Positions 19,290 to 23,327 of a stretch of 49,521 nt of DNA are shown here, one piece after another. Under the pieces are notes generated by a model, which worked only from the letters and a program-made list of their open reading frames with translations, was not told the DNA's origin and ran no database searches. The position numbers and the translations under genes are program-made. Every line of letters begins with the position of its first letter. Position 1 is the first letter of the stretch. The DNA is from Candidatus Altimarinota bacterium (GTDB lineage Bacteria > Patescibacteriota > Gracilibacteria > BD1-5 > UBA6164), in assembly GCA_028696815.1 (NCBI GenBank), contig JAQVGG010000009.1:1-49521 (forward strand), written 5' to 3'.

Positions 19290-20639
19290 TTAATTTTTTA
19301 TTAATTTTTTAATATTTTCTGGTATTATATCATCATCAGATATTGTAGCAAATTTTTCTTCCAAAGATTCAAAATATGTTTTATCATATTTTGTTAAAAT
19401 ATTTTTTCTAAAAATATCCAATAAATCACTATTTTTTCATTTATAAAAATCTAGTGATTTATAAAAAGCAAGAACAACTTCTTCTATTTCTCAAACACAT
19501 TCAAAAGGTTTGATTCAATCAATTCAAAGTAATTCTAAAAAAGTTTTTTGTATAGATGATTTCAAAAATAAATCTTCTCAAAAGATAGAAATAATCTCTT
19601 GCTCTGTTAAATAAGGTCTCAAAATAGTAAAAACAAAAGCACATTTAGGACAAGAATTACACCATATAGTTTGTTTTAATCTTTTGTTTTCATCAATCTT
19701 AAAATTGTTATTACAACTACTAAAAACTCAAAAAAAATCTTTTAGATTTTTTGAAAAATATTCTGCGATTTTTAATTCATACCAGCCTCTAAGAATAGAA
19801 AAATATTTTATATCACTACTCAAATAATCATTTACATAATTTCAAAAATCTCTCTCAAAATCCAAACTTTTACTCCATTGATGATTTATCTCTAATCATT
19901 GCCAAAATGTATTTCATGAATTAGCTGATTTTTCATTTGATAAAACTATATATTTATAATTATAAATATATGATGCAAATAAAAGACAAAAAGCTATTAT
20001 TCAAGTAATAGGAACATGTCAGTTATAATTTCATAAATTATTTAAATCAAGTAAATTTTGACTTATCTTTCTCTTTATAAAATAAATATCTTTTTTAAGT
20101 AATCTTGCACAATTTTCTTTAATTGAATCAGTTTTTCAAAAAACAACTAAATCATAATCTAGATTATTTTTTCTAAATAAATCTATAGAAACAAGCGAAT
20201 CTTTTCAACCTCATAAAGCAATAAAAGATTTTTCAACAACTTCAAAATCGATTTTTTCATGTCTTAATTCTGAATCATTTATAAAATTAAATAAATTTTG
20301 AGGCTTTATATCATTTGTATACAAAAATTCTCATAATCAATTTTTATAAAATTTTTGCCAAAACTCTATTTGATTTGAATCTAAAAATCATGATTTAACA
20401 TATAAATTTTTAGTTGGAAATGATTTATAATAACTGATTCCAAGAGCTATATGAAGAGAAAATAAAAAATTATTAATTATATCATCGTCTAAAATATCTC
20501 TTACAAGAAATTTTTCACTAAAAAAATCTATTTCCTCTTGGAAGAAATAGTTTTCATCAAAACTATATTCAAAACTAGCTTTTAAAGTTTGCTTGTCAAA
20601 GCTAAAACTTTCAAAATAAAATGAATTAAATTCTCTCAT
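19290..20639 (-). CDS. murL: MurL-like UDP-MurNAc-L-Ala-L-Glu epimerase
   Basis: A 449-residue PP-loop (adenine nucleotide alpha-hydrolase-like) enzyme. It contains the ALGGGKDSLVS ATP motif (143-148 GGGKDS), then SNEKSANSGNT, then INHQWSKSLDFE, then SILRGWYELKIAEYF, SSCNN and WCNSCPKCAFVF. These match in order the blocks I know from MurL of Xanthomonas, which epimerises the terminal L-Glu of UDP-MurNAc-L-Ala-L-Glu to D-Glu. Two CxxC-like cysteines near the end may bind metal. Coupling to a transpeptidase gene supports a wall role. Family assignment is from recalled motifs, not a search. Confidence 0.82.
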
Positions 20640-20713
20640 AAAAATAGTTCTCTAAATAACTATATGTATAATAGTTTTTATTGTTAAAATTTCAAATTTA
20701 AGTTTAAGTAAAA

Positions 20714-20742
20714 TTGCATTCAAAATGAAAATATGATAAAAT
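20714..20742 (+). promoter_or_regulatory. Promoter of the tandem ClpX gene
   Basis: TTGCAT (20714-20719), 17-base spacer, TAAAAT (20737-20742), 30 bases before the ATG. Confidence 0.6.
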
Positions 20743-20772
20743 AAAACCAAGTTTAATTTTTAACTAATTTTT

Positions 20773-22929
20773 ATGTGAGCAAATGATTTAAAATTTTCTT
20801 GATGATTATCTGCAGTTGCAAGTCGCTTAACTCAAAAAGATATAGAGGAATATAGAACTCTTTTATGGGAAGTTTATCCAAATGCAAAACCTGATGAAAT
20901 TAATATATTAATTGATATTATTAATAAATGAACTTTAGAAGATTTTTTAAAAGTAAAAGAAGCAGTTCTAAAAAAGGTTCCTATTACAGAAATTATTGTA
21001 GACTCTATATATTCAGATGTATTTAGGATAGTTAAAAAATTTAAAAATCAAGAAAATAGTATTCCAAAAGTAGTTGAACCAAAATATGAAACTCCTAATA
21101 AAGAAGTTGATTGGGCAGATCCAAGAAGTATAAAATGATATTTAGATAAATATGTTTCAGGACAAGAAGAAGCTAAAAAAGTTTTATCTGTAGCATTTTC
21201 AGATTATATAAGTTATGGAACTACTTCTCATAGTTTGCTTATATGACCAACTGGAACTGGTAAAACTTATATATTAAAAGTACTTTGTGAAGCCGCTTGA
21301 ATTCCCTTTGTAAAAATTTCTATGGCAAATGTAACGAGTGCTTGATATAAAAATGAGAATCTATCAGAGAAAATGCAGGTTTTAAGATGAAAAGAAAGAG
21401 CTATAGTTTTTTTAGATGAATTTGATAAACTTTCACCAACAGAAGAATGAAGATGAACACAGTGATTTACAGAAAGATTGCAAAAAGAATTATTATCTTA
21501 TTTTTCTTGAGACAAAATTGAATGAATTGATTCTTCAAAATTTTTAATAGTTACTGCTTGAGCCTTTAACTGATGATTTGGACAACAATCACTTGCAAGT
21601 ATGATACAAAAAAGATTATGATGAAATAAATCTAAACTTGATGAAAGTGAAGTTTTATCACAAGTTACAAATGATGATTTAGTGAGATATGGAATAATGC
21701 CAGAACTTGTTTGAAGACTTGCAAATAAGACTGTTTTAGAACCTTTAGACGAAGAAGCACTTTATAAAATACTTGCTCATACTGAGAATTCTATTTTAAA
21801 ACAAAAAATAAAAGATTTTGATAAAATGTGAATAACTTTAGAATTTGAAGATGAAGCAATAAGACTCATTGCTAAAAATAGTGCTAAATGAGTTTGAGCA
21901 AGATGACTTGAAAGTATTATAAATGAACTAACACAAAGGTATTCTTTTAATAGAGCTGATTATAAATGAAAAAAAATCACCATAACTCCAAATGAAGTAG
22001 AAGAGTTAATGAAAAAAGAAGTTAAATTTGAAAAAGTTGATGATATAGAAGTTGATTGGACAAGTCCTAAAAGTATAATGGATTATATGAACTTTTATGC
22101 TATTTGACAAAATGAAGCAAAAAAATCACTATCAACAAGTTTTATGCTTTATAATAAAAAGCTTGCCAATCCTGACTTACCATTACCACAACCAAACTCT
22201 TTGCTTATTTGACCTTCTTGAAGTTGAAAAACTTATTTAGTAGAATTGCTTGCAAAAAAAGCTCAAATTCCGGTTTCAAAAATAAATTTAGCTGAATGAA
22301 TAAGTGTTTGAGAATTCAGAGCAAGGCTTGCTGATTTAGCTTATAATTGAAAATGAATTGTATTTTTAGATGAAGCTGATAAAGTATTACTTGATGCATA
22401 TTCTCCTCTTAAAAAAGAACTTATATCTTGTTTAGAAAATTGAGAAGCAAATGGAATTGATTTATCTTGAATTATGTTTGTATTGGCTTGAGCGTTTCAA
22501 TGATTATTTGATAAAAAATCTGAAGATTCTTGAAATTCTATTTGATTTTGAGCAGATATTAATAAACCAAAAAATTATACTTGAATAGAAGTAAATATGG
22601 ACAGTTTAATTGAGGCTTGAATTCCAATTGAAATACTTGGAAGAGTACCAAATATAGTTCTTCTTCAAGCACTCTGAGTAAATGAACTAATTGAAATGAT
22701 GAAAAAACCTTGATCAGAACTAGAAAAATTTATAAATTATTTCAAATCTGAAAATGTTGAATTAGTTATTGAGGAACCAGTTTTAACTATAATAGCTACA
22801 AAGGCAAAAGCCAAACTTTGAGCTAGAAGTATAAAACCTATTTTATCAAAACTTTTTAATAGATTCATACAAGATATTGAAAGTTATAGATGAAAAAAAC
22901 TTGAAATTCAAAGTGAAGATATTAATTAA
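20773..22929 (+). CDS. Tandem double-ClpX AAA+ unfoldase-like protein
   Basis: A 718-residue cytosolic protein with two ClpX-type AAA+ modules in one chain and no N-terminal zinc-binding domain (no CxxC in the first 100 residues). Module 1: Walker A GPTGTGKT 158-165, Walker B VFLDEFDK (Asp215/Glu216), pore loop SAGYKNE (Tyr192), sensor region TAGAF, arginine finger in ELVGRL, sensor 2 GARGLES. Module 2: Walker A GPSGSGKT from 480 (all three Gly are TGA), Walker B VFLDEADK (533/534), LAGAF, a SIGFGADI loop (IGF 590-592), finger in EILGRV, sensor 2 GARSIKP. Module 1 lacks the IGF tripeptide and module 2 lacks the aromatic pore residue (GISVGE). Both look ATPase-competent. ClpXs normally have one module of about 420 residues, so this is an unusual duplication; HslU is excluded by these motifs. 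Confidence 0.9.
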
Positions 22930-22955
22930 AATAATAAATAAGTAAATCATTAAAT

Positions 22956-22983
22956 TTGCAAAACAAAAAAATATTTATATAAT
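22956..22983 (+). promoter_or_regulatory. Promoter of rpsO
   Basis: TTGCAA (22956-22961), 16-base spacer, TATAAT (22978-22983); the leader of about 68 bases runs to the ATG at 23058. Confidence 0.65.
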
Positions 22984-22991
22984 CCCATTTG

Positions 22992-23055
22992 TTGATTTAC
23001 TGGTGTATTTTCCGGTTTACTCAATAAAATTATTTTATTTTCGTAAAAATACGAA
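22992..23055 (+). promoter_or_regulatory. Structured 5' leader of rpsO (candidate S15 autoregulatory site)
   Basis: Three successive stems: TTGA...ACTGG/CCGGT...TCAA (22992-23024, with a G-U pair and internal loop), AATAAAA/TTTTATT (about 23023-23039) and TTCGTA/TACGAA (23040-23055). The last ends 2 bases before the ATG. S15 autoregulates through leader structures in several phyla, so this is a plausible but unproven S15 site. Confidence 0.45.
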
Positions 23056-23057
23056 CT

Positions 23058-23327
23058 ATGACAGTTACTAAAGAAGTAAAAAGCAAATTAATTGCTGATT
23101 TTGGTGCAAAAAAAGGTGATACAGGTTCTAGTGAAGTTCAAATCGCTATATTAACTGCACAAATTGAAAACCTAAAAGAACATCTTTTAGAACATAAAAA
23201 TGATAATCACTCAAGAAGAGGTATATTAATTATGGTTGCAAAAAGAAGAAAATTACTAGCATATTTAAAAAGAAAAGATGCAGTAAAATACAATGAAGTT
23301 ATTGAAAAATTAAACTTAAGAAAATAA
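23058..23327 (+). CDS. rpsO: 30S ribosomal protein S15
   Basis: An 89-residue primary 16S rRNA-binding protein that organises the platform of the small subunit. [51 protein letters not shown] and [13 protein letters not shown] are the classic S15 blocks and the length is standard. It contains no in-frame TGA: its four glycines are all GGT, unlike its neighbours. It ends TAA TAA TAA. It has its own promoter and structured leader. Confidence 0.99.

Follow-up and report, generated by a model that had tools for sequence, protein, structure and literature searches.

Unfoldases that form a single ring, such as ClpX, and those that form a double ring, such as ClpA and ClpC, have so far been treated as distinct designs. 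In the E. coli complex the ClpX residues I268, F270 and V274 fill the clefts of ClpP, and the ClpP substitution R192K blocks ClpX binding (PMC7112951). The RKH loop, which touches substrate in E. coli ClpX, is said to be confined to enzymes of the ClpX family (PMC7112951). Covalently linked ClpX has been engineered (Martin et al. 2005, as cited in PMC7112951), and in engineered single-ring ClpX residues 62-424 are joined by 6-residue linkers, the span between modules being made up of 17 C-terminal residues, the linker and residue 62 (PMC7112951). A natural double ClpX, or ClpX together with Gracilibacteria, was not found in the open-licence papers searched.

The tandem clpX-like gene

The window analysed here is a stretch of 49,521 nucleotides from a Candidatus Altimarinota bacterium, whose genome assembly (G000) comprises 1.19 Mb in 41 contigs with a completeness of 98.8% and a contamination of 6.2%. 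The tandem clpX-like gene (20773..22929, + strand, as are all its features below) encodes 718 residues and ends with the stop codon TAA at 22927-22929. The double-ClpX reading frame described by the first-pass annotation was recovered exactly, as a single open reading frame under NCBI code 25 only, in which TGA is read as glycine. TGA accounts for 46 of the 54 glycine codons of the gene and shatters the frame under table 11. Use of this code is indicative of the Gracilibacteria/SR1 branch of the candidate phyla radiation. A search for further two-module ClpX proteins returned one, a full-length orthologue with 85% identity at the same rpsO-murL junction in an independent genome of the same family (G003; L019, 1495-3633, - strand). 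Nei-Gojobori dN/dS values between the two orthologues are 0.08 for module 1 and 0.16 for module 2, and both modules are under purifying selection. An assembly chimera or artefact is ruled out by the presence of the orthologue in an independent genome and by the divergence of the two modules, which are only 33% identical to each other. The recurrence of the protein, together with dN/dS values well below 1 in both modules, likewise argues against a chance reading frame.

ATPase motifs and loops of the two modules

Both modules are of the ClpX-type AAA+ class. Module 1 spans residues 113-414 (21109..22014), with a large and a small domain, and is separated from module 2, residues 428-718 (22054..22926), by a connector of 13 residues (415-427; 22015..22053) of which 415-422 are of low confidence in the structure model. 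The Walker A motif of module 1, GPTGTGKT (158-165; 21244..21267), and its Walker B Asp-Glu pair (215-216; 21415..21420) are evident in both sequence and alignment. Alignment places the arginine finger of this module at R315 (21715..21717), equivalent to E. coli R307, and its sensor-2 residue at R377 (21901..21903), equivalent to E. coli R370. Similarly, sequence and alignment identify Walker A GPSGSGKT (480-487; 22210..22233) and the Walker B Asp-Glu pair (533-534; 22369..22374) in module 2, with the arginine finger R624 (22642..22644) and the sensor-2 residue R685 (22825..22827) located by alignment. These elements are aligned and intact in both modules of both orthologues, in agreement with the two complete ATPase modules proposed earlier.

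The pore-1 loop GYKNE of module 1 (21343..21357) aligns as SAGY192KNE with EAGY153VGE of ClpX, Tyr192 thus occupying the position of E. coli ClpX Tyr153. In module 2 the former pore-1 loop GISVGE (509-514; 22297..22314) aligns as GIS511VGE, where Ser511 replaces the tyrosine and no aromatic residue is present. The IGF tripeptide shows the opposite distribution. It is found in module 2 only, as I590-G591-F592 within the putative ClpP-docking loop SIGFGADI (589-596; 22537..22560), and module 1 carries a 9-residue deletion at the equivalent position. The positions that pack against ClpP in E. coli, I268, F270 and V274, correspond to I590, F592 and I596, the third anchor being Val in the orthologue. 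The residues of module 2 agree with the ClpX majority in only 33% of alignment columns, and its longest run matching that majority is SIGFGA (589-594), which exceeds any run in the Walker motifs or the ATP site. In the model of module 2 the docking loop is the sole loop of low confidence. The first-pass annotation had assigned the pore-loop aromatic to module 1 alone and the IGF to module 2 alone; both assignments hold, and none of the alignments named beforehand as contrary evidence, among them a pore aromatic in module 2 or an IGF in module 1, was obtained.

The alignments add two losses to that earlier observation, namely the RKH loop in both modules (~15 residues each) and the pore-2 loop in module 2. 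Lacking the pore-1 aromatic, the pore-2 loop and the RKH loop, module 2 has thus lost, as judged by alignment, all three known substrate-contacting loops, and it retains the ATP site and the putative ClpP-docking motif. By the same alignments module 1 has kept the predicted gripping tyrosine and lost the dock.

Profile scores and predicted structures

The ClpX profile is the best match for both modules (166 bits for module 1 and 124 for module 2), followed by HslU (117 and 54 bits) and ClpA (34 and 28 bits). The whole protein falls below the curated cut-offs of all three families, with 278 bits against 359 for ClpX (NF003745), 155 against 362 for HslU (TIGR00390) and 64 against 993 for ClpA (TIGR02639); as a control, E. 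coli HslU scores 792 bits against its own model. ClpX is also the best structural match for the predicted fold of module 1 (Z 30.3, rmsd 2.9 Å over 287 residues) and of module 2 (Z 26.3, rmsd 2.7 Å over 274 residues), a likeness that is partly built in because ClpX alignments fed the models. The whole-chain model has a mean pLDDT of 74, and the model of module 2 by itself reaches 82. The models represent single chains, and with a pTM of 0.45 the orientation between the modules in the whole-chain model is unreliable.

The N-terminal domain

Residues 1-112 (20773..21108) form the N-domain, a predicted four-helix bundle with helices at 21-34, 40-52, 55-66 and 71-92 in the structure model. The zinc-binding domain of ClpX is absent, since these residues contain no cysteine, and the ClpX profile match begins after the position of the zinc domain. 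When the segment was scanned alone, no Pfam match rose above noise, the Clp_N repeat domain being among the families that did not match, and no PDB sequence match went beyond noise. The replacement of the zinc domain by about 110 unrelated residues, as previously suggested, is therefore borne out by the absence of cysteine and of a Pfam family. The comparisons were made with sequence matches only, and the domain may have an already known fold. Apart from its first ~22 residues it evolves fast, with 56% identity and a dN/dS of 0.70 between the orthologues.

Distribution and genomic context

A survey of 48 genomes of the family with a two-sequence profile found the tandem gene only in G000 and G003, and a sample of 338 genomes of the class added just one divergent single-module protein, in G566. 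The ClpX family model, run against 147 relatives, matched the two tandem genes alone and detected no ordinary ClpX, and ClpP was found in 131 of these relatives. Within the phylum sample (380 genomes) only G164, G183 and G200 (L100-L102), all members of one family, have an ordinary ClpX. ClpX is thus nearly absent across the phylum sample, whereas ClpP is common in the class of G000. The check for a normal clpX and clpP in G000 itself gave one clpP and, by ClpX profile search, no hidden ordinary clpX. The same genome encodes proteins named from sequence as ClpB, ClpC and FtsH; its ClpC has an IGF loop in the second module, and its ClpP retains Ser, His and Asp and lacks the R192 of E. coli.

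The single-module protein of G566 (L130, 1492-2769, - strand) is a ClpX-like ATPase with a non-zinc N-domain of ~110 residues. It has neither the pore-1 Tyr nor the IGF, has lost most of the RKH region, and has its sensor-2 Arg replaced by Asn.

In both G000 and G003 the tandem gene lies exactly between rpsO (ribosomal protein S15, named from sequence; 23058..23327, + strand) and a murL-like gene, so named by resemblance only (19290..20639, - strand). In many relatives, for example G021, these two genes are directly adjacent, and in G029 an unrelated gene of 488 residues occupies the same place beside murL. In this family the rpsO-murL junction (window 20640-23057; L103, 2007-3473) looks like a hot spot for insertions. 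This arrangement is consistent with the tandem gene having been gained, at a site prone to insertion, by the shared ancestor of G000 and G003, loss from the other relatives being a possible alternative. A second murL-like copy in G000 (C40:54951-56231) has ~50% identity to the murL-like gene beside the tandem (window 19290-20639). It may be a paralogue or belong to the 6.2% bin contamination.

Origin of the two modules

The tandem probably arose by internal duplication, after which module 2 diverged faster than module 1. This origin is favoured by a tree in which the two modules form a clade (support 95/92), by the VDWxxPxSI start and the RKH-loop loss common to both, and by the module 2 profile, which scores module 1 higher than every ClpX tested. 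The duplication is likely rather than certain, because the branches are very long and the support drops to 61/86 when the divergent G566 protein is added. The earlier proposal of duplication followed by division of labour is accordingly strengthened in its second part, where the motif split goes further than claimed, with three loops lost from module 2 and IGFGA kept, and stands in its first part as a favoured origin with that reservation.

No donor of the tandem gene was identified, and phages, plasmids and viral contigs yielded single-module matches only. Small ClpX-like ATPases of phages (phrog_5534) were considered as a source and rejected. A grouping with support 83/87 was obtained with a long-branch warning and the profile scores disagree with it: the phrog_5534 profile scores the tandem modules at 64-67 bits and ordinary ClpX at 68-89, which argues against any special kinship. 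A viral contig protein of 772 residues that resembled a double ClpX (L112, 1582-3900; IMGVR_UViG_3300028948_000703) was also set aside, as it appears to be ClpX with an intein. The apparent intein, of several hundred residues, lies within Walker A (GGSGTGK|A...VVTHN|TFTIQ). The contig matches L010-L012 are ordinary ClpX or Lon.

Proposed mechanism and alternative readings

The best explanation as a whole, to be held tentatively, is a ClpX-derived tandem unfoldase for ClpP in which module 1 grips the substrate and module 2 docks the protease, in stacked rings. A division of labour between gripping and ClpP docking is supported by the motifs of the two modules. Six chains would stack as two rings in the manner of ClpA and ClpC. 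The helical N-domain, placed where ClpX has its zinc domain, would recruit substrates or adaptors; the module 1 ring, distal to ClpP, would grip and pull the substrate through its Tyr192 pore loops; and the module 2 ring would bind and hydrolyse ATP, dock ClpP through I590, F592 and I596 of the IGF loop and hand the substrate chain into ClpP. Docking to ClpP is probable in view of the conserved loop. The two stacked rings are slightly favoured, because the N-domain is followed first by the gripping and then by the docking module, as in ClpA and ClpC, and because the connector, at 13 residues, is shorter than the ~24 residues that separate the equivalent points of engineered single-ring ClpX. 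Against this explanation stands the lack of an aromatic pore loop in module 2, unlike the ClpP-proximal ring of ClpA and ClpC, which has such loops. Against any role with ClpP stand the missing R192 of the G000 ClpP, a position at which ClpPs vary, and the ClpC of the same genome, which could be the sole ClpP partner. It is conceivable, although doubtful, that a ClpX-less lineage acquired ClpX, doubled it and rebuilt the two-ring plan of ClpA and ClpC, with a gripping ring and an ATP-driven ClpP dock that has no pore loops.

Module 2 could instead be a regulatory, weakly hydrolysing docking platform with module 1 as the sole motor, an arrangement compatible with either ring layout. The loss of all three substrate-contacting loops and an evolutionary rate twice that of module 1 agree with such a platform, but Walker A, the Walker B Glu534, R624 and R685 are intact in both orthologues and this reading is somewhat unlikely. 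Alternatively, three of these double chains might close into one pseudo-hexameric ring with alternating modules, where three Tyr loops would grip and three IGF loops would dock ClpP. Engineered single-chain ClpX rings do function with ClpP (PMC7112951), and for another AAA+ ATPase, Msp1, dimers that have been linked assemble as trimers of dimers (PMC12793716). The arginine finger and sensor 2 retained by both modules would also permit mixed interfaces. However, the connector has about half of the span used in the engineered ring and the number of docking loops would fall from the usual six to three, and fewer IGF loops strongly weaken ClpP binding; such a ring is considered unlikely. It is also quite unlikely that the protein is a ClpX-like remodelling ATPase that acts independently of ClpP and retains the IGF as a relic. 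This role is possible because the ClpC of G000, with its own IGF, could serve ClpP alone and because the ClpP of G000 lacks the R192 contact, and it agrees with the disappearance of the zinc domain and the RKH loops and with the single-module ClpX-like ATPase of G566, in which the IGF loop is missing and little of the RKH region is left. It is opposed by the conservation of SIGFGA, the least altered part of module 2 and the same in the two orthologues, and by the conservative Ile/Val exchange at the third anchor.

Comparison with known systems

The tandem protein represents a natural ClpX-type motor with neither zinc domain nor RKH loops. It provides a test case for the emergence of two-ring machines from one-ring ones, and allows a direct test of whether the ClpP-proximal ring requires pore loops. 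It resembles ClpX (NF003745 / TIGR00382) in fold, ATPase motifs, the pore-1 Tyr of module 1 and the IGF of module 2. It is nevertheless not classed as ClpX, because it has two modules per chain, with the motifs split between them, lacks the zinc domain and the RKH loops, and scores below the curated cut-off. HslU, which has an I-domain, no IGF and HslV as its partner, belongs to the same AAA+ unfoldase clade and shares the absence of a zinc domain; its profile matches module 1 (117 bits) and module 2 (54 bits) less well than that of ClpX. The small phage ATPases of phrog_5534 also have a ClpX-type module without zinc domain or RKH loop, but are single-module proteins and have no IGF loop. Engineered linked ClpX likewise carries several ClpX modules per chain, although these are man-made, identical and separated by a longer span. 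With ClpA and ClpC the protein shares the order of an N-domain, a first AAA+ module and a second AAA+ module with a ClpP loop. In contrast, both of its modules are ClpX-type and its N-domain has no Clp_N match, so that by sequence it is neither ClpA nor ClpC. If the proposed functions of the two modules hold, it would work like a ClpX or ClpA/ClpC motor.
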